Below are positions 56 through 33,582 of a stretch of 34,129 bases of DNA, piece after piece. How positions within the stretch are numbered: position 1 is the first letter of the stretch; every line of letters begins with the position of its first letter. A program made the position numbers and the translations under genes. The notes under the pieces were generated by a model. The model worked only from the letters and a program-made list of their open reading frames with translations. It ran no database searches and was not told the DNA's origin. The DNA comes from a virus, in IMG/VR virus record IMGVR_UViG_3300037459_000197, positions 1 through 34,129 of that record. One strand, 5' to 3'.

Positions 56-70
56 CCCCAACGGTTCGGG
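56..70 (-). promoter_or_regulatory. dispersed palindrome, copy 1
   Basis: The plus strand reads CCCCAACGGTTCGGG, one mismatch from the perfect core CCAACGGTTGG. Its centre (63) is 60 bases from the start codon at base 3. It lies between the end of the secreted-protein gene (156) and the next gene. It is likely a protein-binding site controlling that gene. Confidence 0.6.
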
Positions 71-155
71 ACACGGGAGGACGATCACGAATCCTTCGCC
101 GAGAATGTCGATCCCACTTAGCAGCGGAGTTGCATCCGGGCACTCGCAACCGATG

Positions 156-548
156 TCAGTTGGCGAGCAACACAGCGGGCAAGGGGGCGGGAAGAGGGGC
201 GGGGGGAAACGTCGCATTCGCGGCCATCACCTCCGAAGTCAACCCATCGGCGTTCGCACAGCTCACCCTCGCGGGTGCGGGCGGTTGCCCGACACGATCG
301 GCAACCGAAAACACGATCCGGGTTCCGACGGGTACATCAAGAGTGGTCTTCCCATCGGGTACCTCTGCGCCGTCGATCACCGGGACGCAAGTCGTCGGCA
401 CGTTTATCGGCGTGCAATAGGCCAGCGTACCGTCCTCACCGGGCCACACGTTTGGGCCGGAGAGCGGCGGAGGGTCTACGCATTCGGGGTCGATCGCGTA
501 TGCGTTGGACGCAAGTAGCAGGGACGCAATCAAGATCGCTGTTCGCAT
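156..548 (-). CDS. small secreted protein with signal peptide, unknown function
   Basis: This is a 130-residue product. The ATG at 548 has GGAGG four bases upstream, so I rejected a longer upstream extension. Residues 1-18 form a typical cleaved signal peptide: RT, then the hydrophobic run AILIASLLLA, then the AYA cleavage site before IDPEC. The mature part has five cysteines (CVDPP, YCTP, TTCVP, VSCAN), is rich in proline and beta-prone segments, and ends in a PAPLPAPLPA tail. It should be exported to the periplasm or outside the cell. It is the last gene of the small-gene train before the palindrome at 56-70. I do not recognise a family; a superinfection-exclusion or lysis-related role is only a guess. 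Confidence 0.8.
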   Translation of the reverse strand: MRTAILIASLLLASNAYAIDPECVDPPPLSGPNVWPGEDGTLAYCTPINVPTTCVPVIDGAEVPDGKTTLDVPVGTRIVFSVADRVGQPPAPARVSCANADGLTSEVMAANATFPPAPLPAPLPAVLLAN

Positions 549-568
549 GATTCCTCCAGGGCAGTTTT

Positions 569-841
569 TCACTCGCCATCTGTCACAGCGGCACGTCGCG
601 CTAGCGCCTCTGCTATCGCCCACTCGGCCACACCCTCTCCGGATGGGCAATATTGGATCATGAATGCCTCAATGACCATCTCAAGATACTGCTCACGCTC
701 GCGTAGCTGCTCTGCTTCTGTCTTGAGGCGGTCGAGCTCTCCGTCTCGCCCTTGGAGAATTCTCGCAGCCAGTGCAACGTCCTGTCGATTCGCAACGATC
801 GTGCCAGCCTCTTTCATCGCCTTTCCGAATAGGTCTTCCAC
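569..841 (-). CDS. small coiled-coil protein, unknown
   Basis: This is a 90-residue product starting with GTG at 841, with GGAGG about nine bases upstream. The middle (about residues 30-60, GRDGELDRLKTEAEQL) is charged and heptad-like, so a coiled coil is likely. The C-terminus is Ala-rich and helical (AIAEALARRAA). It has no signal peptide or membrane helix. It sits 14 bases downstream of the preceding gene in the small-gene train. The wording GRDGELDRLKTE resembles GRDEELNRLKVE of the 52-residue gene at 3049, so the two may share an origin. Confidence 0.8.
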   Translation of the reverse strand: MEDLFGKAMKEAGTIVANRQDVALAARILQGRDGELDRLKTEAEQLREREQYLEMVIEAFMIQYCPSGEGVAEWAIAEALARRAAVTDGE

Positions 842-855
842 CTACGCCTACCTCC

Positions 856-3052: not shown

Positions 3053-3207
3053 AAGGAGCGTCCCCACACGAAAAAAGCCAGCAACGCGACAACCAGCAAT
3101 GCGGTACGAACACGCCTGTTGGATGCAACGGTCCTTCTTGCCACCTTCGCGCGGAGCTGCTCATTCTCGACCTTGAGGCGGTTGAGTTCTTCGTCGCGCC
3201 CTTCCAT
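3049..3207 (-). CDS. 52-residue coiled-coil plus membrane-anchor protein
   Basis: This small gene has ATG at 3207 and TGA at 3049-3051. The ATG overlaps the upstream stop (TGATG), and its own stop overlaps the next GTG (GTGA), so it fits the operon exactly. Residues 1-25 are charged and heptad-like (GRDEELNRLKVENEQLRAK), followed by basic residues and a hydrophobic helix (ALLVVALLAFFVWG, about residues 36-49). It is probably an inner-membrane protein with a cytoplasmic coiled coil. A holin or spanin partner is possible but unproven. Confidence 0.75.
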   Translation of the reverse strand: MEGRDEELNRLKVENEQLRAKVARRTVASNRRVRTALLVVALLAFFVWGRSL

Positions 3208-3629
3208 CACTTCACCAGCCGGAGCGCCGGATCGTCAGCGTCGCTCGGTTGGTCGGAGACGCATTGCGCGAATTGACCGGTCATCGAATAGAGGGCCGCA
3301 GCCGCGATGATGCGAATCCCGACGTTCAGTAGGTCGGTGCCCATTTCGCCGAACGCTTCCGCGTGTTCCTTGAGTGTCCATTCGGAGGCGTTTCCCTGCT
3401 CTTGCGCACGGAGTTCTGTCGCCTCTATTTGTTCCTCAATCTCATGTAGCAACTGCCGCGCCACAATGGGCGGGTTTTCGGTACCGTGGTCTTTCAGTAG
3501 TTCGGAAAGGAACTCCGCGAGAATGGACGCCGTAGAATCACCTACGCGTTGCGGAGTCGAGAGATCGGAGAGTACGACCTCAATTGTAAACGGGACGGTG
3601 CCCCGCTTTGCTTCTTTGCCATTGTCCAA
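3207..3629 (-). CDS. helical protein, unknown; first gene after the palindrome
   Basis: This is a product of about 140 residues. The frame is open up to 3692 but has no ATG there. The best start is TTG at 3629, with GGGGA seven bases upstream; the palindrome at 3637-3653 would then lie just outside the gene. The sequence begins with a beta segment (TVPFTIEVVLSDL). It continues with long helices (ILAEFLSELLKDH, LLHEIEEQIEATELRAQEQ) and a hydrophobic stretch (LLNVGIRIIAAAALYSM). It follows the tail tube gene where tail assembly chaperones often sit, but it does not look like one and has no frameshift partner. Confidence 0.65.
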   Translation of the reverse strand: MDNGKEAKRGTVPFTIEVVLSDLSTPQRVGDSTASILAEFLSELLKDHGTENPPIVARQLLHEIEEQIEATELRAQEQGNASEWTLKEHAEAFGEMGTDLLNVGIRIIAAAALYSMTGQFAQCVSDQPSDADDPALRLVK

Positions 3630-3636
3630 CGTCAAA

Positions 3637-3653
3637 TCCCCAACGGTTGGGGA
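3637..3653 (-). promoter_or_regulatory. dispersed palindrome, copy 2 (perfect 17-base arm form)
   Basis: TCCCCAACGGTTGGGGA is the longest copy, with eight-base arms around a central G. It lies in the 87-base gap between the tail tube stop (3717) and the next gene start (about 3629). It marks the boundary between the morphogenesis operon and the small-gene train. It probably controls an internal promoter. Confidence 0.7.
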
Positions 3654-3716: not shown

Positions 3717-4883
3717 CTAGGGTTGCTCCGGGTACCATTCGATGGTGCCAAACGGCGTCGTTCCGCCGTTATCGAGCAGCTGGATCGCTAGTGCGCCGAT
3801 TGCGAACGTGTCTCGAGAGAATGGCAGCGCGTCATCGGTGAGCCGGACTTGCGCTTTCGGCACGATCCAAATCAAGTTCCGACCCGTGTTCGTGAGCAGG
3901 CGAATCCGGACCTTGCACGGGAAGACGAATTGCGTGAACGGCGGGAACGTGCTGTGATTCACAACCGTGTGGTCGTAGTCGGCTTCCATCGGCTGGAAGG
4001 ATTTGAGTTCGAGGATGTTCGCAGGACTCGGATCGCCGCCCGCGAACTGGAGCGGGAGCATCCGCACCCGGCCTTGGATGTAGTCGACGACGAAGTCGGT
4101 GTTCTCGGCGAACGAGTGTCCCGGCTTGTAGGTCGCGATGACGCTGGTTCCGACAGCAAGGTCAGTCGGGGTACCCGTTACGTTGAACTCCAATTCACCC
4201 GCGGTCGTCGTGCTGTCCCCGAAGTCGGACACCTCAACCGCGAGCGCCTCCGCTGCCGCGACACCGATCCCGACGATATCGCCGGCCCCCGGACCCGCGG
4301 GTGCGTCGTATACGGTTGTCACGCCCGCGAGCGTCGTGACTGCGATCTCCGTCACGTCGTCATGGTCGAGCGGCTTGAAGTCGACAGCGAAGTCTCCGAG
4401 CGTGCCCCCACCGATGGTTGCGGTTGCCGTGCCAAGCGCTTCGTCGGTGATCTGACCGCACGTGACGGCGGTGATTGTCTCGACGATATCCGGATTCGCA
4501 AGGTCGAGGAAGTCTTGATTGTCGGCAGTGAGCATGAAGGGATCGTCGGCCAAAGATGGAGTAGACGCACCTACGGCAGTCAGGGCGTTGCCGGCGAAGA
4601 ACAGCCGCGTGTTGTTCTCATCCCAATTGAACACACCGACGTTCAAGGTCGAGTCGAACGATCCGACGAGTTCTTTGACCAACACGTCGACACCGCTTTG
4701 CGCGGATCGGAGCTGTTTGAACGCGAGTTCCTTCGCGAACTCTGCGTTTTCGACGATTCCGAGATTTCGGAAAGGCTCGTGTCCGCCCGCCGACAGTTCG
4801 AGCGCGATATCCACGAATGGCATTCCGTGAACGAGGTTGTCCTCTGTGACCGTATCGGTGGGACGCGGGATGATTGAAGTCAT
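3717..4883 (-). CDS. major tail tube protein (putative)
   Basis: This is a 388-residue product with ATG at 4883 and a GGGGG ribosome site five bases upstream. The fold is beta-rich. The N-terminal part has VNAEFAKELAFKQL-like and SFDSTLNVGVFNWDENN segments, the phrasing typical of tail tube proteins near the subunit contact helix. Near residue 260, DFVVDYIQGRVRMLPL resembles the conserved insertion-strand segment of this family. The middle (about residues 150-245) is Gly/Thr/Ala-rich and looks like an extra Ig-like insertion. The protein would polymerise into the tail tube; no sheath gene is seen. It follows the tail terminator gene, as in many siphoviruses. Confidence 0.75.
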   Translation of the reverse strand: MTSIIPRPTDTVTEDNLVHGMPFVDIALELSAGGHEPFRNLGIVENAEFAKELAFKQLRSAQSGVDVLVKELVGSFDSTLNVGVFNWDENNTRLFFAGNALTAVGASTPSLADDPFMLTADNQDFLDLANPDIVETITAVTCGQITDEALGTATATIGGGTLGDFAVDFKPLDHDDVTEIAVTTLAGVTTVYDAPAGPGAGDIVGIGVAAAEALAVEVSDFGDSTTTAGELEFNVTGTPTDLAVGTSVIATYKPGHSFAENTDFVVDYIQGRVRMLPLQFAGGDPSPANILELKSFQPMEADYDHTVVNHSTFPPFTQFVFPCKVRIRLLTNTGRNLIWIVPKAQVRLTDDALPFSRDTFAIGALAIQLLDNGGTTPFGTIEWYPEQP

Positions 4884-4892
4884 GTGACCCCC

Positions 4893-5336
4893 TTATGAGA
4901 ATGCGAATCGTCCGGAAAGGACGGTGAAATCTTGTGACACCACGTTGCGTCCACCGAGCGCTGTATCCACGTCGCGCCCTAGTGGATTCGGCAGATTGAT
5001 CGCGGTGATTTGTGCAATCGGGACTCCGCGGACATTTCCCTGGAACAAGTGTAGAAACCGGTGGATGTCCTTGGCGCGTTCCAATGCGTTCTCCGACGAG
5101 TTGTCACCGCCGCGACGCGTGACGACCTTGATACCGATCTCCTCGGAGACGGTGAGTTCGGCTGATCCACCAACCCCATCGAGCAGAATGGTGATCGTGG
5201 CGTCTGGCGACTCGGGTTGTTCGTTGATGAAAATGTCTGTCCCGAACACACCGAAAGAAGCCGCGACCAGTTCGTCTCCGCCGCGCCCCCCCAACACCAG
5301 CGCTTCCGCCACTGCGCGTTCGATTCCGAAACCCAT
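4893..5336 (-). CDS. tail terminator / minor capsid-type completion protein (putative)
   Basis: This is a 147-residue product with ATG at 5336 sharing its A with the upstream TGA. The middle (PDATITILLDGVGG, then VTRRGGDNSSENALERAKDI) has the strand-loop-helix layout of phage tail terminator proteins, which show an aligned P..a..l.dtgG segment, a V.vR strand and a helix of A..I. residues. The C-terminus (VVSQDFTVLSGR) fits the final strand. Position between the HK97 gp10-like gene and the tail tube gene also fits. This is a fold-level guess, not a strong match. Confidence 0.65.
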   Translation of the reverse strand: MGFGIERAVAEALVLGGRGGDELVAASFGVFGTDIFINEQPESPDATITILLDGVGGSAELTVSEEIGIKVVTRRGGDNSSENALERAKDIHRFLHLFQGNVRGVPIAQITAINLPNPLGRDVDTALGGRNVVSQDFTVLSGRFAFS

Positions 5337-5773
5337 CACCTGCCCCGCTTGGTTTTCTTGATGGCTTTCTTCATCGACTTCGCTAGCAGGGCATTCCAAC
5401 GCGCTTGATGTCGTTCGAGCGGTCGCGAGAGGAAGCCGGGGCCGACCTTCCCGTCCCCCATTCTCGGTCTCTTCCGTCTCGAAACCGGTCCGAGGTTGTA
5501 CGTCCCATTGTGTAGGAAGTTGAAATACTTCGCCGTCTCCGGTGTGGTTCCGAACTCAACCTTGAACACGACTCGACCGCGAGATTGAACAGTCCGGGTG
5601 ATCTTTCCGGAATTCTCCATCGCCTTCGTGAGTCGTGGACTCAACGCGCGCGCCCGTTGCAACAGTTCCCGGGAGTTCGCCTCCATTTGCGCGGCCACCG
5701 ATTTCGGAGCGGTCTTCGCAATGCGATCGAGACGAGCGGAGAACTTCTGGAATGAACGAATTCGCTTAGCCAC
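5336..5773 (-). CDS. HK97 gp10-like head-tail completion protein (putative)
   Basis: This is a 145-residue basic product. GTG at 5773 overlaps the upstream stop by eight bases. It has an N-terminal helix (KFSARLDRIAKTAPKSVA) followed by RELLQRARALSPRLT, a strand (VVFKVEFGTTPETAKY) and FNFLHNGTYN. The order 'helix - ARaLsPr - beta - Y..f.h.GT' is that of HK97 gp10/minor-tail-completion proteins. The C-terminus is strongly basic (KSMKKAIKKTKRGR). It acts at the neck or tail end during joining. Confidence 0.7.
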   Translation of the reverse strand: MAKRIRSFQKFSARLDRIAKTAPKSVAAQMEANSRELLQRARALSPRLTKAMENSGKITRTVQSRGRVVFKVEFGTTPETAKYFNFLHNGTYNLGPVSRRKRPRMGDGKVGPGFLSRPLERHQARWNALLAKSMKKAIKKTKRGR

Positions 5774-6128
5774 CGACGTCCAACTCCAAGTGATGAAGAA
5801 CAGTCCCTTTCCAGAACGGGTTCACAGAGACGACTTCGCGCTCCGGTGTCGCGGCACCCCTCCAGTCGGTGTGCGTGACGAAATCACCATTCACCACGTC
5901 GAGCGCATCGAGGTCGCTGTCCACCGGGTCGATGAAGAACCGGCCCGTGATAGCGACCGTGACCGACTCGGCGTTCGTCCTGAGTTGAGATTCCACCGGT
6001 TCGTAGAAGCCCGACAATCCGGAAGCCTGCGTCGTGCGGCTCGCGATGTCACCGCCGGGCCCTCGGACGACCCGAATAATCGAAATGTCTGTGAGTTGTT
6101 TCAGCGGAGAATCGGAGATTCGCCCCAT
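5766..6128 (-). CDS. head closure-type connector protein (putative)
   Basis: This is a 120-residue product with ATG at 6128 overlapping the upstream TAA (TAATG). It is beta-rich, with alternating strands (ISIIRVVRGPGGD, SVTVAITGRFFIDP, REVVSVNPFWKGTVLHHLEL). Size, fold impression and the place between adaptor and gp10-like genes fit a head closure (stopper) protein. No strong motif allows a firm call. Confidence 0.6.
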   Translation of the reverse strand: MGRISDSPLKQLTDISIIRVVRGPGGDIASRTTQASGLSGFYEPVESQLRTNAESVTVAITGRFFIDPVDSDLDALDVVNGDFVTHTDWRGAATPEREVVSVNPFWKGTVLHHLELDVGG

Positions 6129-6577
6129 TAGTCGATCGCGTTCGGGTCAAGGTCCGCGCCTGAAGGGTTCGCGAACTGCCCCTTTCTGAAATCCGGCTGG
6201 ACAAGATCGGTGTCTTTCCGATCCACTTCCTTGCGATCTTTGCTGATCCCACCCACGAACATCGCTACCGGTAGGATCGCTGTCTCCGAGTAGCCAGCCC
6301 GGACGCGAAGCCGCTTCGCCATGTCCCGATAGTTCTCAGTGAGCTGCGAATTACTGAGAGTCGTGTTGCCGATCTTCTCGTCGACACTTTGCGCAAACGA
6401 AACCGCGAGGACGTCGGCCGCCTTGGAAGCCGCGAATAGAGTCGGTCCGCCTTGAGCGATATAGAACTCGATCTCGTCGTCCGATATTCGAGCACTGGAG
6501 CAAACCGTGTCGCCGATCTCGAATCGAACTTGATCTTTCGCAGAAGTGGCTGGATCGCCGCTGTAGGTCGCTTGCAC
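6128..6577 (-). CDS. head-tail adaptor protein
   Basis: This is a 149-residue product. GTG at 6577 has GAGG seven bases upstream. The N-terminus YSGDPATSAKDQVRFEIGDT, followed by an ISDDEIEFYI-type helix, is the signature opening of head-tail adaptor (connector) proteins of siphoviruses. These bind under the portal. Residues 45-95 are helical (AASKAADVLAVSFAQSVD, LTENYRDMAKRLRVRAG). The C-terminal 40 residues are charged and probably disordered. Confidence 0.85.
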   Translation of the reverse strand: MQATYSGDPATSAKDQVRFEIGDTVCSSARISDDEIEFYIAQGGPTLFAASKAADVLAVSFAQSVDEKIGNTTLSNSQLTENYRDMAKRLRVRAGYSETAILPVAMFVGGISKDRKEVDRKDTDLVQPDFRKGQFANPSGADLDPNAID

Positions 6578-6586
6578 GCCAGCCCT

Positions 6587-7276
6587 CTACTCGTCGTCCC
6601 CCGCGTCGGGAGACTCGCTCGCTGTGTCCGTTTCTGGCTCGGTGTCGGCGTCGGTGGAGTCCACTGCGGCAGTGGACTCGTACAGGTCGACTTCCGGCTG
6701 CGTGTCGGCGTCCGATTCCTCAGCATCCGGCTCGCTGCTCGCGTCTGCATCCGGCCCCACGGCGTCCGTATTGCCCGACTGTTCTTCGAGCGCAGATTCC
6801 ATCACATCGAGCGCGTCTGGTTCGGCTTCTGGTTCTCGTCTACGCCGTAGGGGACGGCCGCCGGTTGCACCCGCTTCAGACCTCCCCTGATCTTCCACGG
6901 CAGCGCTGGCGACCGTCGCCCCGACAGCCCCACCGAAATAGACGAGTTCTCGGATCTCTTTCCCGTCTGCGTCACGCAAACCAGTGTACACAAGGCGGCT
7001 TCCACGTCCTGGGCTCTGCACTCGGACCTCCCTCACGCGCTCGTCGAACGGGATCTTCAACACACGCAGTTGGCGACGCGACTCCGGATGCGCTCCACCG
7101 TTCGCCATAATCTTGAGAACGACTCCGGATTCGATCCGGTTTCGCAGCTTGCGACCAAAGACCGCTTCCGCGAATTCCGGATCAATCGGAGTCCCGCGCG
7201 GTAGCATCGTGTGCCCAGCCGCCAAGATATTCGGGACTCCGCATCGCCGGCCAGCGAAGTATTGAGCCTCAGCCAT
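6587..7276 (-). CDS. structural-region protein with long acidic tail, unknown
   Basis: This is a 229-residue product with ATG at 7276 and GGGGAG upstream; the 60-codon extension upstream is a shadow of the capsid gene. Residues 1-130 look globular (NILAAGHTMLPRGTPID, VLKIPFDERVREVRV, RLVYTGLRDADGKEI). From about residue 145 there is a basic patch (RPLRRRREPE). After it come about 80 residues made almost only of D, E, S, T, A and P. Such an acidic tail could be disordered and bind basic surfaces. Lying just after the capsid gene, it may be a capsid accessory or neck protein. No family is recognised. Confidence 0.75.
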   Translation of the reverse strand: MAEAQYFAGRRCGVPNILAAGHTMLPRGTPIDPEFAEAVFGRKLRNRIESGVVLKIMANGGAHPESRRQLRVLKIPFDERVREVRVQSPGRGSRLVYTGLRDADGKEIRELVYFGGAVGATVASAAVEDQGRSEAGATGGRPLRRRREPEAEPDALDVMESALEEQSGNTDAVGPDADASSEPDAEESDADTQPEVDLYESTAAVDSTDADTEPETDTASESPDAGDDE

Positions 7277-7296
7277 CGTTGCTCCCCGTGCTGCTG

Positions 7297-8265
7297 TTAG
7301 GCGACCACGTCCAGGAAGAAGTAGCCGAGTTCTGCGGCGACCAGTTTCTGATCGAATGCGAATGCGGCCTCGATGATGTCGCCTTCGACTTTCTCGTCCC
7401 GGAACTTCTTGATCCGAGGACCTTCGGCCGCGCCGCTGAACAGGCCCGTCCAATTGAACGTGTACCCGAGCGACGGTCGCCGTAGTCCAGGCGACGGCTG
7501 GCGGTATCCAACAAGAACGTGCTTGCCAGCGATGAACGCGGTTGCTTCCGTCCCCTCTTCGGCGCCCGAGTTCACGACCGCGCGGGAAACCATGAATTCA
7601 TCTACCTCGAACAACTGAGCCAGCAGTGAGGTCGCGATGATCGCAGGGCCTTGGGTGTACTTGATGCGGTCGAGGATGTCAGGGTGCTGGGACAGTTGCT
7701 CCCATACCGGTTGCCCTGCGAGGATGAAGTTCGGACGGAAACCTGTTGCGCCTTCCACGGTACTCATCGCGGTGGCGATGTCTCCGTGAGGATCGCCAGT
7801 CACGCCGGCATCCCACAGCGTCGCAGGAGTGAACGTCGTTCCCCAAACACCACCGACGAAGTGGTCCGTGTGCCAAAGCGCTTCTCGACGAGTGAGGAGT
7901 TGCTGTGTCACGAACTCCATTGCTTCTTCGTCGGGGTTCTGCTCGTCGTCCGCCTCGGTCCGATCTTCGTCGGTGACGATGTAGGCGAAATCGTAGCGCC
8001 GACAGAAGAACGTCGATCGGGAGATCCGGAATCCACCGACAGCGGCGGGGGTACCGTTCGCCCGCTCTTCGGCCTGATCGCGAAGGAAGTCGGCGCGATC
8101 GTACTCGGTGTATTGGTTCCCGCGCTGCTTTGTATTGACGATCGGGAAAACCCGCGCGGCGATGTACTTGGTTTGGTCTTGAATCCAAGCAATCGACAGC
8201 GTGGCGAGCGGCCGGTTGACGTGCCGATCTCCAGATGTCGGTAGTGATTTTCGAATGCGGCCCAC
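7297..8265 (-). CDS. major capsid protein
   Basis: This is a 322-residue product. GTG at 8265 has GGAGG seven bases upstream. Characteristic segments are KYIAARVFPIVNTKQRGNQY near the N-terminus and LWDAGVTGDPHGDIATAMS. GFRPNFILAGQPVWEQLSQH and HPDILDRIKYTQ then follow; this last block is the spine-helix/P-domain wording of a large family of HK97-fold capsid proteins. The C-terminus (IKKFRDEKVEGDII) fits the last strands. No prohead delta domain is fused to it; the scaffold seems to be the C-terminal part of the protease at 8775. It forms the icosahedral shell. Confidence 0.92.
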   Translation of the reverse strand: MGRIRKSLPTSGDRHVNRPLATLSIAWIQDQTKYIAARVFPIVNTKQRGNQYTEYDRADFLRDQAEERANGTPAAVGGFRISRSTFFCRRYDFAYIVTDEDRTEADDEQNPDEEAMEFVTQQLLTRREALWHTDHFVGGVWGTTFTPATLWDAGVTGDPHGDIATAMSTVEGATGFRPNFILAGQPVWEQLSQHPDILDRIKYTQGPAIIATSLLAQLFEVDEFMVSRAVVNSGAEEGTEATAFIAGKHVLVGYRQPSPGLRRPSLGYTFNWTGLFSGAAEGPRIKKFRDEKVEGDIIEAAFAFDQKLVAAELGYFFLDVVA

Positions 8266-8331
8266 GAGCGACCTCCCCTTGATTCTGTTCGAGCGGTGTA
8301 GCGCCCACGATCGAGCGCGGTTGAAACTCTG

Positions 8332-8712
8332 TTACGCGGCTGCGTCCTTGCCGCCGGGATACAGTCGGACGGACCCGACTTCATTGAGCCCAGCGCCGCT
8401 CCGAGTCATGCCCAGCGCTTGCACGCCTGCACCCGGAACCAGCGTGATCGCGCGCCCCGCGCCGTCGGACATCACTTCTACACCCGCGGCAACGGTGGCG
8501 CCGAAGAAGACTTTTGAGATCCCCGAATCCATGAGCTCGCAAGCCTGGGTATTCTCCGGGTTGTTCTGGAGAACACCGATCACCTTGACCGACGAAGAGG
8601 TCGCCAGGATCGCGTTGGCACCAGACACCGTCATGAAGCGATGCAGACCGGTCGTCGAAAGATCGGCTCCAGCAATCGCGGTGTACTTGAATCCGTTCGA
8701 GAAACTCGCCAT
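8332..8712 (-). CDS. capsid decoration/cement protein (DUF2190-like)
   Basis: This is a 126-residue product with ATG at 8712 and GGGAG six bases upstream. It is Gly/Ala/Val-rich and beta-strand based, with AGADLSTTGLHRFMTVSG, VKVIGVLQNNPENTQ, FGATVAAGVEVMSDGAGRA and GMTRSGAGLNEVGSVRL. The pattern 'G..v.....G...IGV......G..v.v...G' is that of DUF2190-type capsid cement proteins, which are coded just before the capsid gene. It would bind the outer shell and stabilise it. Confidence 0.8.
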   Translation of the reverse strand: MASFSNGFKYTAIAGADLSTTGLHRFMTVSGANAILATSSSVKVIGVLQNNPENTQACELMDSGISKVFFGATVAAGVEVMSDGAGRAITLVPGAGVQALGMTRSGAGLNEVGSVRLYPGGKDAAA

Positions 8713-8774
8713 TGGTTCTCCCTTCGATCGGTACTTCGGTTCTCAGAGAATGAACGCGTCCGGAAGCGTCTCCG

Positions 8775-10805: not shown

Positions 10806-10820
10806 TGGTGCCTCCGGTTG

Positions 10821-11243
10821 CTAGAAGTAATCGATCTCGTGATGTACGAACACTTCCACGGTATCGGCCGCAGACACTCCAACGGAGTCGTCCACTCGGA
10901 TCACGTCGCCAGCCAGCGCGACAAACTCTGGCATAATTACCCGATAAGTATTGTCAGCATCGGGCACTCCTGGAACCGTTTCGATGGAGACATTCGGCGC
11001 GAACAAGCCTTGGATCACGTCATCCGCCGTGATGTCAACCGCCACTTCTCGAGCGAGCTTTTCGGCCCCGCCAACCCGCAGCGACACACGGACAAATCGC
11101 GTCCCCACGGTGGCGTCTGCGGTGTAGGTGAAGCTGATCACCTTGACTAGCCACCGCTCGCCAGCGGGGACCGTGATGTTGCCGGGAATTACCGCGGTGG
11201 CGAAGATGGTTCGTTGGGTGTCGCGTCGATCCTGTCTAGACAT
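10821..11243 (-). CDS. small beta-rich structural protein, paralogue of the next gene
   Basis: This is a 140-residue product with ATG at 11243 and GGGGG upstream. It is beta-strand rich (AVIPGNITVPAGERWLVKVI, TRFVRVSLRVGG, NTYRVIMPEFVALAGDVIRV). The block VPAGERWLVKVISF aligns with VPQNRRWLVKTIEV of the gene at 11308, and the order of strands after it is similar. The two look like ancient duplicates. Their position between MuF and the protease suggests virion proteins such as decoration or head-fibre subunits, but no family is recognised. Confidence 0.8.
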   Translation of the reverse strand: MSRQDRRDTQRTIFATAVIPGNITVPAGERWLVKVISFTYTADATVGTRFVRVSLRVGGAEKLAREVAVDITADDVIQGLFAPNVSIETVPGVPDADNTYRVIMPEFVALAGDVIRVDDSVGVSAADTVEVFVHHEIDYF

Positions 11244-11278
11244 CGCTGCCCCCTGTGAGGCGAAACGCCCCGTTCAAC

Positions 11279-11295: not shown

Positions 11296-11307
11296 CTTGG
11301 GCGAGTA

Positions 11308-11718: not shown

Positions 11719-11726
11719 TCTGACTC

Positions 11727-22226: not shown

Positions 22227-22429
22227 GGGTAGCTGGATTCGACATGGACGAGCCACCAAAGCGCGCCGCCCCCAATTGTGACGGTTCGAACGAAGACCCA
22301 CGCCAGTTCTCGGATCGCTTTCCACGGGAGCGGCTTCGGTCCGATCGGTTCATAGGCTCTGAATTCGTCCGCTCCGGAACGCGCTCTCGCTTCGGCTCGA
22401 ATGTCCACGTGCGGAACGTTCGCTCTCAT
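22223..22429 (-). CDS. small membrane protein, unknown
   Basis: This is a 68-residue product with ATG at 22429 overlapping the upstream stop (ATGA). Residues about 43-63 are hydrophobic (AWVFVRTVTIGGGALWWLV), a likely membrane helix near the C-terminus. The N-terminal half is charged and probably cytoplasmic. The function is unknown. Confidence 0.7.
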   Translation of the reverse strand: MRANVPHVDIRAEARARSGADEFRAYEPIGPKPLPWKAIRELAWVFVRTVTIGGGALWWLVHVESSYP

Positions 22430-22698
22430 TCGGGCTCCGTTGGGAGGACTGTTCGAATTTCGCGCGGCGGGATGTCTCCGCACCATTGCTCGAGGATCCC
22501 CACCACGGCATCGGAGATCGTCCGACCCTCGGGAGTCGCGCGCGACAAACGCTCGTGAAGCTCTACCGACACGAGTAGATCAATCGGGAGCTTCCCGGGT
22601 GAGCGGCTCTCGTATTCCGGGGCCTTTGGCGCCTCCCGTTTCACCGCACGCGCCAGCCCCTCCATTGCATCAACGAATTTGTCTCCCCAATCGGTCAT
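22426..22698 (-). CDS. small protein with possible ribbon-helix-helix domain
   Basis: This is a 90-residue product with ATG at 22698 (ATGA overlap). Residues about 36-75 (LPIDLLVSVELHERLSRA, then GRTISDAVVGILEQW) have the strand-helix-turn-helix spacing of ribbon-helix-helix DNA-binding proteins such as CopG. If so, it is a small regulator and a candidate binder of one of the palindromic sites. The N-terminal helix is amphipathic. The assignment is tentative. Confidence 0.75.
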   Translation of the reverse strand: MTDWGDKFVDAMEGLARAVKREAPKAPEYESRSPGKLPIDLLVSVELHERLSRATPEGRTISDAVVGILEQWCGDIPPREIRTVLPTEPE

Positions 22699-23780: not shown

Positions 23781-24007
23781 TATCCTGCCTCCACTCTCAT
23801 CTCCGACACAGCAACCGCCATCTGGGTCCAATAGGTAATCTGCGACCGAAGCGATTGCTCCTTCTTGTCGTATTCGTAAACGATGACATCGAGTACGAGA
23901 CGGTCGTGTGCAAACGCGTCTCGAATTCTCTGCGCCGGGGTAGATGCTTGACACATCGTAGACTCGTCGAGTGCGGTCCTGACGGCTTCACATTGCTCAC
24001 AACTCAT
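23780..24007 (-). CDS. small helical protein, unknown
   Basis: This is a 75-residue product with ATG at 24007 (ATGA overlap with the ATPase gene). It begins MSCEQCEAVRTALDES with a CxxC, and the rest is helical (QRIRDAFAHDRLVLDVIV, TYWTQMAVAVSEMRVE). It directly follows the ATPase gene and could be its partner. The function is unknown. Confidence 0.75.
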   Translation of the reverse strand: MSCEQCEAVRTALDESTMCQASTPAQRIRDAFAHDRLVLDVIVYEYDKKEQSLRSQITYWTQMAVAVSEMRVEAG

Positions 24008-25491
24008 ACAGCCTCCACCAACGCCCCATCCTCGATCACGAACACACCTGCTTTCCCTTCATAACCGCGGTTGACCTCGATCCAAAATTGAAAATCGTTA
24101 GCGACAGCGAACTCCGTAACGATCTCCATCGACTCGTCATCGAGCACACTGCCGTCGCGAATCAGGAGGACATTGAGGCCGTCATTGGTTGCAACACCGA
24201 TCGCCATCGAAACGCGGATCCGCTGTGCGCGGCTCGCCTGTTCGAACGGGAACCTGTTGAAATAGACTCCTCCCTTGCGGAGCTCGAGTCCCTCGATCGG
24301 GTATTCCACGGCTTCGGTTGCTTCGCGAATCTGCTTCGTCAACGCTTCGTGTCGGGTGTCGAGCTTCTTCCAGATCTCTCCCTTGGCGTCGGCTTCCTCC
24401 ATCCGATCGGCGCGTTTCTCGTTGGCCCGGATCTCTTCGTTCGAGGCTTCCACGCCATCGAGTTCGGATTGGATGTCAGCAACGTCCGAAGACTGCTGGC
24501 CGTGATCTTCCCACCACTGTTCTAGTTCGGACTGGGACTGCAGCAGGGCTCGGCGGATCACGCTCAGATCGGTGATATCTTCTTCGATCCGTACCCCGTG
24601 GGAGACGTGATCCTCGCGGAGTACTTCCAATTCTTCCTCCAATCTCTCGCCGTGGGCAACGTGCGACGCACGGAGTTGGTCAATTTGCTCGTCGATCCGG
24701 ATCCCGTGGGCCTCGTGCTCGTATTGCAGTCGTTCGGTTTCTGATTCCAGCCTCTCCCCGCTGGTCACGTGCAACGCGCGACTCGCTTCGCACTTGGACT
24801 CGTTCGCTCCCAAGTCGCTACCCAGTCTCTGAATCTGCCCCATTTTCTCCTGCCGTCGGGTCTCGGTCGCGACCGCTTCCGCCATCCGCGCCCCGATCTC
24901 CGACACCGACACCAACTCCGCGGGAGCGTTGGGGAACAGCGGCAGATCCTCCGCGATCGCCTTCGCCTTCCGATGATCCTGCCCCGCTGTCGTGCGACGC
25001 TCGAACACGTCCGCTTGTTCGGTCTCCATCGCTTCGACATCTAGCCCGACCAATTCGCGGAGAGTCCGCGCGCAATCGAGCTTAGCCATATTCGCGAACG
25101 CCAGCGGATCGAATGCAAGCAACCCGTAGAGACGGTCGAGCATCTCCTGTGGCTTGGAGATCAGCTTCCCCTCTCCGTCGCGAACGATCAGCGTTGTTCG
25201 GTATTCGCCGGGAATGTCGGTCCGTGTGAATGTACGGGTGATGTCGAATTCACCTAACTTGATGCGGATCTCCGCTTCGTTCTCTCCCTCGCGGATCGGC
25301 TCAGCGGGGCAGAGCTTCTTTCCGCCGATGGCGAACGCGATGGAGTTCATGAACGAGGATTTTCCCTCCGCGTTCTCACCACCGATCCAAATCACGTCGG
25401 TGTCGGGCGTGACGCTGATCGCGCGAACCTTCATAATATTAGATACCTCGAGCCGTGCGATCTTCAATGCCTGGGGGGCTGCTGCTGTCAT
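24004..25491 (-). CDS. RecF/SMC-like AAA ATPase with coiled-coil repeats
   Basis: This is a 495-residue product with ATG at 25491. The N-terminus has the RecF/SMC/Rad50 layout: LKIARLEVSNIMKVRAISV, then Walker A GGENAEGKSS (K44) and the FDITRTFTRTDIPGEY strand region. Residues about 150-395 form a long coiled coil containing four tandem 18-residue repeats (241-312). The C-terminal half-domain has a FEQASRAQRIRVSMAIG signature helix and Walker B-like NVLLIRDGSVLDDES. It is shorter than bacterial SbcC or Rad50 and has no CxxC zinc hook. It probably acts in phage DNA recombination or repair; no nuclease partner is recognised beside it. Confidence 0.88.
   Translation of the reverse strand: MTAAAPQALKIARLEVSNIMKVRAISVTPDTDVIWIGGENAEGKSSFMNSIAFAIGGKKLCPAEPIREGENEAEIRIKLGEFDITRTFTRTDIPGEYRTTLIVRDGEGKLISKPQEMLDRLYGLLAFDPLAFANMAKLDCARTLRELVGLDVEAMETEQADVFERRTTAGQDHRKAKAIAEDLPLFPNAPAELVSVSEIGARMAEAVATETRRQEKMGQIQRLGSDLGANESKCEASRALHVTSGERLESETERLQYEHEAHGIRIDEQIDQLRASHVAHGERLEEELEVLREDHVSHGVRIEEDITDLSVIRRALLQSQSELEQWWEDHGQQSSDVADIQSELDGVEASNEEIRANEKRADRMEEADAKGEIWKKLDTRHEALTKQIREATEAVEYPIEGLELRKGGVYFNRFPFEQASRAQRIRVSMAIGVATNDGLNVLLIRDGSVLDDESMEIVTEFAVANDFQFWIEVNRGYEGKAGVFVIEDGALVEAV
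24556..24771 (-). repeat. four 54-base tandem repeats in the ATPase coiled coil
   Basis: Codons 241-312 encode HVTSGERLESETERLQYE, HEAHGIRIDEQIDQLRAS, HVAHGERLEEELEVLRED and a fourth unit starting HVSHGVRIEEDITDLS. Each is 18 residues. Units two to four start with HxxHG and all share a [RI]L/I-E-E heptad core. Copy number may vary between relatives. Confidence 0.85.
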
Positions 25492-25819: not shown

Positions 25820-25833
25820 CCAACGGTTGGGGA
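25820..25833 (-). promoter_or_regulatory. dispersed palindrome, copy 4
   Basis: CCAACGGTTGGGGA lies between the divergent starts at 25765 (minus leader) and 25882 (plus). Its centre is 60 bases from the leader ATG and 57 from the plus-strand ATG, so it could control both. Confidence 0.7.
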
Positions 25834-25881: not shown

Positions 25882-26145
25882 ATGTGCGATCGAATCGTCT
25901 TGACACCGGAAGCCGCCTCGGCACTCAACGAAGTGTTGATCGAGATTCGGGAGCGGCTTTGGGCGGAGGCTTGCTCTGCTATCGACGATCGGTTCGGAGC
26001 GGGGTCGGCTCGCATGTTCGTGAACCTGGGGACCATCTCGGGCGTTACTCGTGAGACCGTTTCCGCCGCAATTCGCGACGCAGCGTCCTCGCCCGCAACT
26101 CCCGAAAAGCCGCACGATACCCAGGCTCGCTTTCCCGCCTCTTGA
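25882..26145 (+). CDS. lone plus-strand small protein, possible DNA-binding regulator
   Basis: This is an 87-residue product with ATG at 25882 and only a weak ribosome site. It is helical: PEAASALNEVLIEIRERLWA, then FVNLGTISGVTRETVSAAIR near residues 45-65, which has helix-turn-helix spacing. It is the only plus-strand gene in a 10 kb minus-strand block and diverges from a palindrome, the usual position of a regulator beside its own operator. Its last 101 bases overlap the gene at 26045 tail to tail. The regulator role is inference. Confidence 0.65.
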   Translation: MCDRIVLTPEAASALNEVLIEIRERLWAEACSAIDDRFGAGSARMFVNLGTISGVTRETVSAAIRDAASSPATPEKPHDTQARFPAS

Positions 26146-26894: not shown

Positions 26895-26907
26895 CCCAAC
26901 CGTTGGG
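26895..26907 (-). promoter_or_regulatory. dispersed palindrome, copy 5
   Basis: CCCAACCGTTGGG lies between the stop of the zinc-ribbon gene (26933) and the next gene start (26884 or 26789). It probably marks a new transcription start inside the minus-strand block. Its central base is in the orientation opposite to most copies relative to the gene it precedes. Confidence 0.65.
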
Positions 26908-26932: not shown

Positions 26933-27424
26933 CTACCGGCTAAATTCCGCCCATAGTTTGGTTCGCGCCCCTTCGATACAGCGGCGCGCCTTCCACTCGG
27001 TCCAACGCTCGCGCCGTCGCCATCGCTTGTTCGCCTCCGCAGCAACGCGGTTGTAGGGTTTGACTCCGGCCCACAAATGCAGCTCGAGATACAAGCGAAC
27101 TTCCCACAGAGTCAGAATGTCCAGGCGTTTCCGGAGCCCCGCCAGTTCCGAAATCCGGTCTGGAAGAATCGTAGGGGTTCGGGCCGGCGTGGACGATCGG
27201 AACCGACTCCACACACCCCACGCTGCCCCACAGGTCGCACACACCCACGCGCCAGAACCATCCTCCACCGACCATCGGCGTTGGCGCTTTCGGCACCGTG
27301 GTGCGGAACAGCGGACCGCGAAAGACCACCCTTCTTCGGCGCTCGGTGTCGCGGGTCGCGGGGAGGCTACGAGTTGCCCCAGTTCGAGGTAGCGCCAGAA
27401 GATTTCGTCGGGTCCGGAGATCAT
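26933..27424 (-). CDS. zinc-ribbon plus helical protein, possible transcription regulator
   Basis: This is a 163-residue product with ATG at 27424. An overlapping frame (26940-27461) looks like a shadow because it is low in structure and rich in Arg/Pro. Residues 38-72 contain CSAPRCRKRQRRW and WVCATCGAAWG, a two-knuckle zinc ribbon. The C-terminal 70 residues are helical (RKRLDILTLWEVRLYLELHL, then RRRERWTEWKARRCIEGA), resembling late-gene regulators of the RinA/ArpU sort only in general layout. The palindrome is 25 bases upstream of its ATG. Confidence 0.75.
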   Translation of the reverse strand: MISGPDEIFWRYLELGQLVASPRPATPSAEEGWSFAVRCSAPRCRKRQRRWSVEDGSGAWVCATCGAAWGVWSRFRSSTPARTPTILPDRISELAGLRKRLDILTLWEVRLYLELHLWAGVKPYNRVAAEANKRWRRRERWTEWKARRCIEGARTKLWAEFSR

Positions 27425-27443: not shown

Positions 27444-27456
27444 CCAACGGTTGGGA
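27444..27456 (-). promoter_or_regulatory. dispersed palindrome, copy 6
   Basis: CCAACGGTTGGGA fills most of the 33-base gap between the upstream stop (27458) and the zinc-ribbon gene start (27424). Being so close to the ATG, it could act as a repressor site over the promoter or as a hairpin in the mRNA leader. Confidence 0.65.
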
Positions 27457-27457: not shown

Positions 27458-27730
27458 TCAATCCGGAGCGTCCATCCCGAGAAATCCTCGGATCTTGTCA
27501 GCACCATTTCCCGCCAATGCTTGCGCCGCCGCCACCGACTGCGGATCGCCGCATTTCAACTCTATCTGAATCGCCTTCAGCAATCCGACAGTCACGACGC
27601 ACAGCTCTTGACGCAATTCAACCTGTTCCAACGCGCGCCTCGCCGACTTCGCGCCGGAGACGGACCACCCAAGACCGAAGCAAATCGAGCCACCGACCCA
27701 CAGCCAGAATACGAACTCTAAATCACTCAT
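27458..27730 (-). CDS. small membrane-anchored protein, unknown
   Basis: This is a 90-residue product with ATG at 27730 (ATGA overlap). Residues 4-24 are hydrophobic (LEFVFWLWVGGSICFGLGW), a signal anchor. A helical soluble part follows (RRALEQVELRQELCVVTVGL, then AAAQALAGNGADKIRGFL). It pairs with the similar membrane protein coded immediately upstream. The function is unknown. Confidence 0.8.
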   Translation of the reverse strand: MSDLEFVFWLWVGGSICFGLGWSVSGAKSARRALEQVELRQELCVVTVGLLKAIQIELKCGDPQSVAAAQALAGNGADKIRGFLGMDAPD

Positions 27731-30291: not shown

Positions 30292-31284
30292 CTACTTGAG
30301 CAACGAGACCAACGCCTTCGCCCGCGCTGTGCGATTCGCGCCCAATAGTGTCGAGTCCAGGTGGCGAGCGGCCTTCTCGGGTCCCCAACCATCGGAGTCC
30401 TTCGCGATAGCCAACGCCTTCTTGTGGTGATCAAGGAACTCTGAGAGCCCGTTGAATGCGTCCCAGCCGCTCTCTCCGCGGTTGCCCGCCCCCTCGCCAA
30501 AGTAGCGGACGATCGTATCGACATCGGCCTTCTTGCCCTTGTCCGTGCCGCGCGGATTGATCTCATCCATCAACGCTTTCGCCCAGTTCCGAACCTTCTG
30601 GACGCTCATCTTCCGAGCTTCCAGGGTCGCGGCGATCGAAGCGAAGCCATCGTATAAAGCGTCCAACTCGAGCAGCGTTGAATCCGCTTCGGCTGCGCGC
30701 CCTTCCGCGTTGCCAGTGTGCCGGATCTTGATTTCGCTCTGTAGTCCGTGGATCTGAGCGAAGTTCAACGTGTTCTGGCACACGTCGCGAACCGGGGTGA
30801 GCCCGCACGAGCGCGCGCGCGAGTCCCCGTGGGTATTGACGAACAGCGCGTACTTCGTAATCTCGTCGTCGTCGGCCCCGATTCGCTTCACCATCATGGA
30901 TCCGAGCTTCGCGAGCACCCATACCACCCGCCCGCCACGGAGCGAGCCGGCTGTCTCAAACGTGAGTTCGCCGCGCTCCTGGAGTAACCCAGCGACCATC
31001 AAGTTTACATCGTTCTGGATGATCGAGTAGCGGTCGCCAACGGTCGCCTTCGCGATGGCTTCGACTTTGCCGTCTGGGAATGTCCGTACGAGCGAGAACA
31101 CGTCTTCCACCGGGACCGCTTCATCGGGCGACAGCACAGCCATGATCGGCTGTAGCGAGACCGTCCAATCGATCTTCGCACGTCGGGCCATCGTCGCCGC
31201 GCTGGGATTGTCTGTGAATCGCTCTCCGAGTCCATGCCACGGGACTTCGTTCCGGTACGCCGTCGTTTCGACTTCGTGCGACAT
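30292..31284 (-). CDS. DUF932 / phage-plasmid-like TIGR03299 protein
   Basis: This is a 330-residue product with ATG at 31284 and GGAG five bases upstream. The opening ETTAYRNEVPWHGLGERF is the signature of the DUF932 family. It is followed by IDWTVSLQPI, VGDRYSIIQN and LTPVRDVCQNTLNFA-type motifs. These proteins are common in phages and plasmids; their function is still unclear, though links with recombination and single-strand annealing have been proposed. It is the first gene of the long minus-strand block, and a palindrome is centred 61 bases upstream. Confidence 0.92.
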   Translation of the reverse strand: MSHEVETTAYRNEVPWHGLGERFTDNPSAATMARRAKIDWTVSLQPIMAVLSPDEAVPVEDVFSLVRTFPDGKVEAIAKATVGDRYSIIQNDVNLMVAGLLQERGELTFETAGSLRGGRVVWVLAKLGSMMVKRIGADDDEITKYALFVNTHGDSRARSCGLTPVRDVCQNTLNFAQIHGLQSEIKIRHTGNAEGRAAEADSTLLELDALYDGFASIAATLEARKMSVQKVRNWAKALMDEINPRGTDKGKKADVDTIVRYFGEGAGNRGESGWDAFNGLSEFLDHHKKALAIAKDSDGWGPEKAARHLDSTLLGANRTARAKALVSLLK

Positions 31285-31339
31285 CGGCTCTCCGTTCTAA
31301 CGTCGATGCGACTTACGCCGCGTGGTCACTCCCTATCGA

Positions 31340-31350
31340 CCAACCGTTCG
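31340..31350 (-). promoter_or_regulatory. dispersed palindrome, copy 7 (one mismatch)
   Basis: CCAACCGTTCG on plus reads CGAACGGTTGGTCGATA on minus. Its centre is 61 bases from the DUF932 start at 31284. The flank ACGGTTGGTCGATA is shared with the copy at 31484, which faces the opposite way, so this gap looks like a symmetric divergent promoter pair. Confidence 0.6.
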
Positions 31351-31454
31351 CGCACTTGATCGATAGTTCCGAACCGTTCAATTGTACCCGCTCTGAGCGA
31401 ATGGAGTCAACGAATTTCGCCGACCGGCAACACTTGTGCAAGCCAAGGGTATCG

Positions 31455-31465
31455 CCAACGGTTGA
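31455..31465 (+). promoter_or_regulatory. dispersed palindrome, copy 8 (one mismatch)
   Basis: CCAACGGTTGA lies 30 bases centre to centre (about three helical turns) from the next copy at 31484. This spacing would allow cooperative binding of two dimers on the same DNA face. Confidence 0.55.
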
Positions 31466-31483
31466 GCGAAAGCACTACAGTTT

Positions 31484-31495
31484 CCCAACGGTTGG
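31484..31495 (+). promoter_or_regulatory. dispersed palindrome, copy 9, with possible -10 element
   Basis: CCCAACGGTTGG is followed by TCGATATAGTAAGG. TATAGT (about 31499-31504) is a plausible -10 box, which would put the palindrome in the -10/-35 spacer, the classical operator position. The next start codon is at 31536. Confidence 0.6.
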
Positions 31496-31535
31496 TCGAT
31501 ATAGTAAGGGAGACACAGCAACAGGGAGCGAGACA

Positions 31536-31622
31536 ATGACACTTCGAAAATTCGTCGGCTTTGCAATCTTCACCGCGGTTGTTCTTCGGGCGATCCTCGC
31601 GAGCGCTGGGAGCTTGCTGTAA
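31536..31622 (+). CDS. 28-residue membrane peptide
   Basis: ATG at 31536 has GGGAG seven bases upstream and the frame ends with TAA overlapping the next ATG (TAATG). The peptide begins MTLRKF and continues with a single hydrophobic helix (VGFAIFTAVVLRAILASA). Basic N-terminus plus helix predicts an inner-membrane peptide with its N-terminus inside. Good ribosome site and coupling support a real gene. The role is unknown. Confidence 0.65.
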   Translation: MTLRKFVGFAIFTAVVLRAILASAGSLL

Positions 31623-31990
31623 TGGTACGCGTATTCCGGTGCACACAGGGCAACTGGTATTGGGCGACGGACGCGAGTGATCCGGTCGGACCGTTCGACG
31701 AAGCGGACGAGGCGGAAGACGCTGTCCGGAACAACCTGGAATTTCTATTCGAGGCTGCTCGAATATTTCTCGAAGAGGAAGAGCTGGAACTCTACGAAAT
31801 GGCGCTAGGGGTCGCGCTCGACTTCGCGAAGGAACTCGGCTGGACAGCCGGCGCGGACTCACAGTTCGTCCGATGGCTGCTGATCCATCAACCCGGACTC
31901 GGGAGTAACGCGACGCTACGAGAACGGCTGTTCGTAACATGGCACAGAGCGCGGGCGCACGCTGAGCAGCTCGTTATCGATTCAGAATGA
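31622..31990 (+). CDS. acidic helical protein, unknown
   Basis: This is a 122-residue product with ATG at 31622 overlapping TAA. The N-terminus VFRCTQGNWYWATDASDPVG looks like a small beta hairpin. The rest is acidic and helical (FEAARIFLEEEELELYEMAL, then FAKELGWTAGADSQFVRWLL). It is coupled to the methyltransferase by ATGA, so it may be an accessory factor of it, or simply co-expressed. Confidence 0.8.
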   Translation: MVRVFRCTQGNWYWATDASDPVGPFDEADEAEDAVRNNLEFLFEAARIFLEEEELELYEMALGVALDFAKELGWTAGADSQFVRWLLIHQPGLGSNATLRERLFVTWHRARAHAEQLVIDSE

Positions 31991-32943
31991 CAGCTCTATA
32001 CAATGAAATCGGACCCTTTCCAGCTCGGTGGCTCGAGAACCTCATCGCTGCCGATCTGATCGCAACCGGGAGAGTCGACGCCCGGAGTGTCGAAGAGCTG
32101 CGTGCAATCGACTTGCGCGATTGCAACCAATTTCATGCGTTCGCCGGTATTGGCGTGTGGTCGCACGCGCTACGGTTGGCGGGCATCCCGGATTCGTTCG
32201 AAGTCTGGACAGGATCCTGCCCCTGCCAGCCATTCAGTAACGCTGGACGTCGAAAAGGAACGGACGATGACAGGCACCTCTGGCCCGAGTGGCTCCGCCT
32301 CATTGAGCAGTGCGGACCTCCAATCATCTTTGGAGAGCAAGTTGCGAGCCGAGCTGGGCGGGATTGGTTGTCCAATGTACGTGCTGACTTGGAAGCATTG
32401 GGATATGCCGTCGGGGCCTCCGATTTGTGCGCTGCGGGCGCGGGCGCCCCGCACATCCGTCAGCGCCTCTACTTTGGAGCGGTCCGGTTGGCCGACTCCG
32501 GTAGCGAACGACGACAACAAATCAGTCGAGGCCCATCTGAGGATGAAAACCCGGATGGGAGAGCGGGACGGAACGTGGGCGAGGCGAACAGCGATCACAT
32601 CGCTTCAAGTGATGGCAAAAGCCGCGGCGTGGGTGACACCAACAGCGCGCGACCACAAGGATGGAACCTCGGTGGGGACAGCCCCGATCAACGGATTGCT
32701 GGGGGGGATGGCATGGCTAGCTGGGTCCGATGCTCAGATGGCAGAGCTCGGCCCATTGAACCCGGCACATTCCCGCTGGCTCCTCGGACTCCCAACCATG
32801 TGGGACGACTGCGCGCCTACGGAAACGCGATTGTCCCGCAAGTAGCTGCCCTGTTCGTACGATCCTTTCTCGATGCAGTCGGAGCCTGTTACGAACCTGA
32901 GCCCGGGGCCGACTGTCACGCCCAACTCCCTTTCAACTTCTGA
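31987..32943 (+). CDS. C5-cytosine DNA methyltransferase
   Basis: This is a 318-residue product with ATG at 31987 (ATGA overlap). Motif I FAGIG is at 52-56. Motif [11 protein letters not shown] carries the catalytic Cys80, and the ENV motif is replaced by FGEQVAS (E117). The QxRxR region is HIRQRLYF (156-163) and motif X is [11 protein letters not shown] (277-287). The order and the C-terminal GTFPLA...[12 protein letters not shown] wording match a phage Dcm-like family. Residues 170-270 are low in structure, so the target-recognition region is short. It probably protects phage DNA from host restriction. The same DNA has a second recognisable frame (32267-32845). Confidence 0.92.
32267..32845 (+). 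CDS. overlapping +1-frame protein inside the methyltransferase gene
   Basis: This is a 192-residue product from ATG 32267 (AAGGA about nine bases upstream); the frame is open from 32087. It does not read like a random shadow. [65 protein letters not shown] and [20 protein letters not shown] are motifs I recall from a recurrent family of phage and bacterial proteins annotated near or over such methyltransferases. The WxTPxAxD unit occurs twice. Whether it is translated, or only a conserved mirror of the methyltransferase codons, is open. Confidence 0.5.
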
Positions 32944-33221
32944 TCGATCTCCGCGATTCGCCGCTTTCCATCTTCGATCTTGTCGTGCCACTTTCTTCTT
33001 TTCTTGAGTGCGCCAACCGTCTTTTCGTATCGTCGCCAGGTCGGGAGGTGCGCCACTAGTTCCGCGCTCTCTTCTTTGATATCGCGGAGTTCCAAAACAC
33101 CCATTCCCATCAGAAAATCCTCAACAGTAGGAGCTGCGAAATACCCAGTGGGACAGCCTTGAATATGGACGACTACACACCGTTGCGCAGCAATCTCACG
33201 CCGTCCCACCGGGTGCCACAC
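32916..33221 (-). CDS. small protein with basic coiled-coil end, unknown
   Basis: This is a 101-residue product from GTG at 33221 without a clear ribosome site. The N-terminal part (QRCVVVHIQGCPTGYFAAPT, then EDFLMGMGVLELRDI) looks folded. The C-terminus is a charged helix (RRYEKTVGALKKRRKWHDKI). Its last 28 bases overlap the methyltransferase end tail to tail. A palindrome is centred 51 bases upstream. Confidence 0.7.
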   Translation of the reverse strand: MWHPVGRREIAAQRCVVVHIQGCPTGYFAAPTVEDFLMGMGVLELRDIKEESAELVAHLPTWRRYEKTVGALKKRRKWHDKIEDGKRRIAEIDQKLKGSWA

Positions 33222-33255
33222 TGACTAACACGAGACTCAGGGCGCTGCAACAGCA

Positions 33256-33582
33256 TCACTCTTTCCCCAACGGTTGGGAGCCTTCCTCCGCCTCTTCGCT
33301 CCGCCTCTTCGCTTCCCGGACGAACTCCAGAAGGGCCGCCGCCGTCGCATCCTCCGCGGTTGGTCTACCGCGAGCCCGCGACCAGTCGTCTATTTTCGAT
33401 TTGAGCGAGTCTCGTCTGGCGTAGTACGACTCGACTAGATTGCGCTCCGCCTTTCCGCTCGAGACCAGCGCGAGTAACCGCCGCCCCGACTGCCACGCGG
33501 TCAGCGCCATCGTCCACAGCCAATCGACGAACAGCCCCCACACGATCTTGATACGCCACCCGCGCTGTTGCTCCACGCTCAA
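33256..33582 (-). CDS. small protein with hydrophobic segment, unknown
   Basis: This is a product of about 108 residues. TTG at 33582 overlaps the upstream TGA (TTGA) and has GGGG five bases upstream; GTG at 33576 is the alternative. Residues about 13-32 (KIVWGLFVDWLWTMALTAW) may be a membrane helix. The rest is charged and helical (RNLVESYYARRDSLKSKID, then LLEFVREAKRRSEEAEEG). The palindrome at 33265 overlaps its last codons, so it must serve the next gene. Confidence 0.7.
   Translation of the reverse strand: MSVEQQRGWRIKIVWGLFVDWLWTMALTAWQSGRRLLALVSSGKAERNLVESYYARRDSLKSKIDDWSRARGRPTAEDATAAALLEFVREAKRRSEEAEEGSQPLGKE
33265..33279 (-). promoter_or_regulatory. dispersed palindrome, copy 10
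   Basis: CCCCAACGGTTGGGA lies within the last codons of the gene at 33256, and its centre is 51 bases from the next start (33221). It encodes the C-terminal QPLG of the upstream product, so the site is kept even where it overlaps coding sequence. Confidence 0.65.

Follow-up and report, generated by a model that had tools for sequence, protein, structure and literature searches.

The window analysed here is the whole of IMG/VR virus record IMGVR_UViG_3300037459_000197 (34,129 bases), and the question that it raises is why a single odd palindrome, CCAACSGTTGG, recurs in it and what protein would read the copies. Seven exact copies are present, whereas an order-3 Markov simulation predicts 0.055 perfect cores per window. 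With up to two mismatches allowed, 26 matches were found as against 9.0 ± 2.7 in dinucleotide shuffles, and none of 100 shuffles reached 26. No palindrome of the same 5-1-5 form exceeded four copies in simulated genomes, the second commonest 5-1-5 arm in the window occurs twice, and the top palindrome in 92 control loci of at least 10 kb had five copies at most; the locus with that number, viral contig G008, itself bears the motif (see below). The excess of CCAACSGTTGG over chance is real. In the literature searched, no account was found that names the motif as a regulatory site; its letters occur in six papers, none of which seems related to judge by the title.

Eleven putative regulatory sites and their scatter

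The site set comprises seven perfect cores, three one-mismatch copies and one weaker site:

58-68, minus strand: one-mismatch site, centre 63, CGAACCGTTGG on the minus strand; score 20.2; 60 bases before the ATG at 3
3640-3650, minus strand: perfect core, centre 3645; gap between the structural genes (ending at 3717) and 3207-3635
19790-19800, unstranded: perfect core, centre 19795; divergent gap between 19138-19749 (minus) and 19855-20247 (plus)
25820-25830, unstranded: perfect core, centre 25825; divergent gap, 57 bases before 25882 (plus) and 60 before the ATG at 25765 (minus)
26896-26906, minus strand: perfect core, centre 26901; just downstream of the gene for protein P0001, inside a leftward array
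27444-27454, minus strand: perfect core, centre 27449; 33-bp gap, 25 bases before the P0001 ATG at 27424
31340-31350, minus strand: one-mismatch site, centre 31345; 61 bases before the DUF932 gene, partner 31375 at 30 bp
31370-31380, minus strand: weaker site, centre 31375, CGAACCGTTCA on the plus strand; score 11.0; absent from the preliminary description
31455-31465, plus strand: one-mismatch site, centre 31460; partner 31490 at 30 bp
31485-31495, plus strand: perfect core, centre 31490; 46 bases before the ATG at 31536
33267-33277, minus strand: perfect core, centre 33272; overlaps the 3' end of open reading frame (ORF) 33256-33576

The preliminary description of this DNA had located the seven perfect cores, zero to three bases early because a longer word had been taken, together with the one-mismatch copies at 58, 31340 and 31455, and all ten were recovered. 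Its observation as a whole is partly confirmed: the copies are there, but neither the statement that every copy begins a unit nor a fixed distance to the start codon holds up.

Nine of the 11 sites lie in non-coding DNA, which makes up 12.4% of the record by our own gene calls (codon model trained on large open frames; names from PHROGs, Pfam and NCBIfam). The exceptions are 25825, within a doubtful 46-residue call, and 33272. Four further one-mismatch copies, at 14770, 20772, 21539 and 21889, likewise absent from the preliminary description, fall inside genes or weakly annotated stretches. The AAC/GTT trinucleotide is kept in 22 of 22 half-sites and positions 4-7 tolerate change, a pattern that fits two protein half-contacts. 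Several changes hit one arm only and break self-pairing, and an RNA hairpin was therefore rejected. The idea of a methylation site was also rejected.

The odd palindrome, the invariant AACSGTT and the non-coding placement point to a single dimeric protein, and so do two features described next, the pairing at 30 bp and a site that overlaps a sigma-70-like promoter. We conclude that these candidate sites probably form a dispersed operator set for one dimeric regulator, most plausibly phage-encoded. Such a dimer would read CCAAC with each half, AAC-S-GTT being the indispensable core. The set would then show how a phage lineage without a recognisable repressor may coordinate early, late and accessory genes, and the palindrome could serve as DNA bait to fish out the regulator.

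Paired sites, a promoter-like sequence and distances to start codons

The divergent gap 31285-31535 holds four sites, paired as 31345/31375 and 31460/31490, with a spacing of exactly 30 bp in each pair. Of the other seven sites, 63 and 25825 likewise have their best-scoring neighbour in the range of 15-45 bases exactly at 30; these weak neighbours lie at +30 for site 63 and at both -30 and +30 for site 25825 (p about 0.02, hand estimate). Judged from the sequence, the paired sites in the gap look like cooperative operators, in which two dimers would occupy each pair about three helical turns apart and bind cooperatively. Beside the leftward pair lies:

31381-31410, minus strand: sigma-70-like promoter TTGACT-18-TACAAT, 10 of 12 consensus matches (a consensus match only)

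It is the window's only promoter-like sequence reaching 10 of 12, and its predicted start falls on site 31375. The leftward pair would cover the start point and the early transcribed region of this promoter, an arrangement suited to repression. On the rightward side a -10-like TATAGT, with no clear -35, begins 10 bases past centre 31490, and the pair just upstream of it could act by repression or by activation. The same protein might damp initiation or block elongation at the sites that stand singly, both those ahead of the structural block, the ATPase block and the pyrophosphatase gene and those within the leftward arrays.

Sites precede the structural block, the ATPase array, the DUF932 array, the methyltransferase unit and the MazG-like gene. 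Three stand inside leftward arrays: 27449 in the gap between 27458-27730 and 26933-27424, 26901 between 26933-27424 and the array's next gene, and 33272. These three contradict the earlier claim that every copy begins a unit. The related proposal, that a single dimeric protein acts at every early and late promoter, survives in its first part, the single dimeric regulator, which is the best reading, and is too strong in its second.

A distance of 60 or 61 bases from centre to start codon had also been put forward. It is correct for the starts at 3, 19855 and 25765 (60) and 31284 (61) and fails as a fixed rule, the other distances being 46 (19749 and 31536), 25 (27424), 16 (the ATG after 33272) and 10 (the TTG at 3635). 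The start at 25765 has the right distance and a good Shine-Dalgarno sequence, but its frame encodes only MQIGNAS before a stop that overlaps the GTG of 25745-25488; this seven-codon frame with its strong Shine-Dalgarno sequence (25765-25742) is a possible leader peptide. Among the seven perfect sites, a TYCCC extension is present on the upstream arm in six and on the downstream arm in two, a possible orientation bias that comes from few sites, of which the divergent ones are ambiguous.

Candidate regulators and competing explanations

Two proteins are candidate owners of the sites:

26933-27424, minus strand: P0001, 163 residues, the favoured regulator candidate, flanked by sites 27449 and 26901
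22426-22698, minus strand: 90-residue protein, the second candidate, ribbon-helix-helix-like by eye and without a family match

P0001 has four zinc-ribbon-like cysteines and a helix-turn-helix (HTH)-like C-terminus, both recognised by eye, and it matches Pfam Zn_Ribbon_Prim at E 0.01, below the cut-off. Single-sequence AlphaFold models were too poor to use (predicted local distance difference test, pLDDT, 43 for P0001 and 54 for the 22426 product), and sequence searches of solved structures with the candidates returned noise only. The product of 25882-26145, which the preliminary description had also named, has no detectable DNA-binding domain; its other two, 22426 and 26933, are the candidates listed above. 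On these features P0001 may be the regulator, an assignment that we regard as tentative and somewhat doubtful. The fuller proposal is less probable again: P0001 would belong to an undescribed family combining a zinc-ribbon-like with an HTH-like part and would bind the palindrome genome-wide, at promoters and inside operons, as a dimeric, palindromic counterpart of the stoperators with an origin separate from the mycobacteriophage and SPbeta systems.

Several observations weigh against an operator set read by a phage protein. The position of the sites relative to starts varies widely. Promoter-like sequences are no more numerous than in shuffles (3 found in a 15-kb stretch, 3.6 expected), so the meaning of TTGACT-18-TACAAT rests on its position. 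Searches of the record for HTH_3, RHH_1, resolvase and integrase domains detected none, and the PHROGs, Pfam and NCBIfam scans of its proteins named no repressor; with no recognised repressor or integrase, neither lysogeny nor a regulator is established. The relatives found are distant only, and no close one is at hand to show conservation of the sites: IMG/VR was scanned at the protein level, where DUF932, the major head protein and P0001 led to no relatives and a terminase query returned seven contigs at 39-44% identity, in which neither the motif nor any comparable palindrome was found. Lastly, G008, with which the window has no detectable common protein, carries the same palindrome, which could mean a common host protein.

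This last point leads to the alternative that survives best, in which a global regulator of the host, LexA-like or other, owns sites that the phage has adopted, and the state of the host times the phage genes. In its 55,271 bases G008 has six copies, four of them perfect and two near (consensus TTCCCAACSGTTGGGAA); five fall within the last 3 kb, one of these in the gap before a small-terminase-like gene, and the copies adjoin arrays of Fur-box-like palindromes; the absence of a recognised phage repressor from the window also suits a host protein. Many phages may have private palindromes, so one coincidence of this kind is not surprising. The counts in bacteria speak against the host. The motif was counted as a 13-mer in about 1,170 genomes of the Pseudomonadota (drawn via a Burkholderia genome), the Actinomycetota (via a Mycobacterium genome) and the class of a Tabrizicola genome, and reached at most four copies in each, in groups that may not include the host, whereas a reversed control pattern reached up to six in the same genomes. 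The three richest genomes were inspected, and all eleven of their 13-mer copies proved to be in open frames. The 17-base ideal site gave 95 matches in the genome collection where about 120 are expected (uniform composition, 257 billion bases), and of the 47 inspected most fall within long open frames, which in several lineages are the same conserved gene. These are exact-word counts, which degenerate sites would escape, and within the groups sampled they disfavour a host regulon. We consider adoption of host sites unlikely.

In longer single-site scans G008 was the only contig with more than two copies, the other contigs checked having at most two perfect ones. When viral contigs were scanned for a two-copy pattern, most of what came back was coding tandem repeats, and the scan is therefore uninformative on the motif; L016, L021, L034, L044, L045, L079, L081, L116 and L123 share an unrelated coding repeat with CAACSGTTG words 30 bp apart. 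The end of G008 (L241, 12660-12930) contains about seven Fur-box-like palindromes of the GAGAATCATTCTC type at intervals of about 35 bp, with variable palindromic spacers and mixed with TTCCCAACSGTTGGGAA, possibly a decoy for a host regulator or a control array.

The palindromes could instead be activator boxes, at which a phage activator recruits RNA polymerase to early and late promoters and the palindrome replaces the -35. TATAGT without a -35 past centre 31490, and the 60/61-base spacing at four starts, would be expected of such boxes, but spacing to starts runs from 10 to 61 bases, some sites stand 25 bases or less from start codons, too near for upstream activation, and one coincides with the presumed start point of a promoter whose -35 and -10 elements are both good. 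We therefore think activator boxes quite unlikely. An element acting at the level of translation or RNA, as the start-associated sequences (SAS) of cluster K phages might suggest, with the right arm GTTGGGGA doubling as a ribosome-binding sequence, would account for the GGGGA with which, at sites 3645 and 33272, this arm ends a few bases ahead of a start codon; the distance from most sites to a start is 25-61 bases or more, and the strict dyad symmetry, with AACSGTT conserved without pair-preserving changes, suits a protein dimer better, so that this explanation is very unlikely. Sites for partition, replication or packaging that merely happen to lie in gaps could likewise be dispersed, intergenic and partly paired, but the sites track gene starts, and the PHROGs, Pfam and NCBIfam scans recognised neither par nor replication genes; this origin is given scarcely any weight. 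A chance repeat or compositional artefact, to which only the 59% G+C of the phage lends itself, was rejected on the counts in simulations and control loci.

Comparison with known operators and layout of the record

The idea of dispersed operators is familiar. What is new is the word itself, along with the protein that would own it and the lineage of the phage. In phage lambda, the CI operators are 17-bp partial palindromes clustered at two control regions. The window shares with them odd palindromes in adjacent pairs (30 bp here) and a divergent control region, and by analogy adjacent dimers might lie on one face of the DNA, but its sites are genome-wide and 30-bp spaced, and neither a CI/Cro homologue nor HTH_3 was found beside the control region. 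The SPbeta repeated element (SPBRE), a 15-bp motif over about ten promoter or intergenic regions of one phage, was known by sequence long before its protein, MrpR, a master repressor with a tyrosine-recombinase fold (PMC10516654). In layout the operator set proposed here would resemble it, with one motif in about ten regulatory regions of one phage; the sequence is another, the motif in the window is a strict odd palindrome, and no match to Pfam Phage_integrase (PF00589) was found in the record at the sequence level, so that no MrpR-type fold was recognised.

Cluster A mycobacteriophages such as L5 carry 20-30 stoperators, 13-mers without symmetry to which a single protein monomer with HTH and Stoperator domains binds (PMC6550527, PMC9283540). 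The HTH repressor of that system blocks elongation. The comparison with stoperators had been drawn in the preliminary description, and it stands as to placement: in both, sites are dispersed over the genome at promoters and in short gaps within operons, and the mild orientation of stoperators with transcription may have a counterpart here. Family membership does not follow, as cluster A sites are asymmetric and monomer-bound (PMC9283540), whereas the 11 sites here are 5-1-5 palindromes in a record with no HTH_3 match and no lysogeny genes seen. Both the symmetry of the palindrome and the fact that no protein of the HTH_3 or recombinase type was recognised speak against placing the window in the SPBRE/MrpR or the cluster A system. 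If the operator set is what it seems, dispersed operators, here in a dimeric genome-wide form, evolved more than once. The SAS and ESAS elements of cluster K mycobacteriophages are asymmetric 13-mers 3-7 bp from the starts of non-structural genes only (PMC3203893); they too are short conserved repeats near the starts of many genes, but most centres in the window are 25-61 bases from starts, and the sites are palindromic.

Genes near the sites are arranged as follows:

3717-19749, minus strand: structural block (terminase, portal, MuF-like, protease, major head, connectors), leftward from site 19795
19138-19749, minus strand: small-terminase-like gene, which heads the structural block; a probable tail-tube gene is at the far end (3717)
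24004-25491, minus strand: SMC/RecF-like ATPase, first gene of the leftward array 25491-21120, downstream of site 25825
30292-31284, minus strand: DUF932 / TIGR03299 gene, first gene of the leftward array 31284-26538, downstream of the paired sites
31987-32943, plus strand: DNA (cytosine-5) methyltransferase, in the rightward unit from the divergent gap

The open frame of the MazG-like pyrophosphatase continues in phase across the record ends (33806-34129 plus 1-3), which suggests that the record, although it has no end repeat, is circular; a good Shine-Dalgarno sequence lies ahead of the ATG at 3. The record's proteins include no recognised tape-measure, tail-tip, lysis or replication function, and tape-measure, tail-tip and replication genes are present in the relatives, so the record may be either partial or an unusual head-only, satellite-like element. 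If it is partial, the regulator gene could lie outside it. Between the small- and large-terminase genes, 16803-18353 encodes a 516-residue protein without a family match, where the relatives inspected carry short genes at most.

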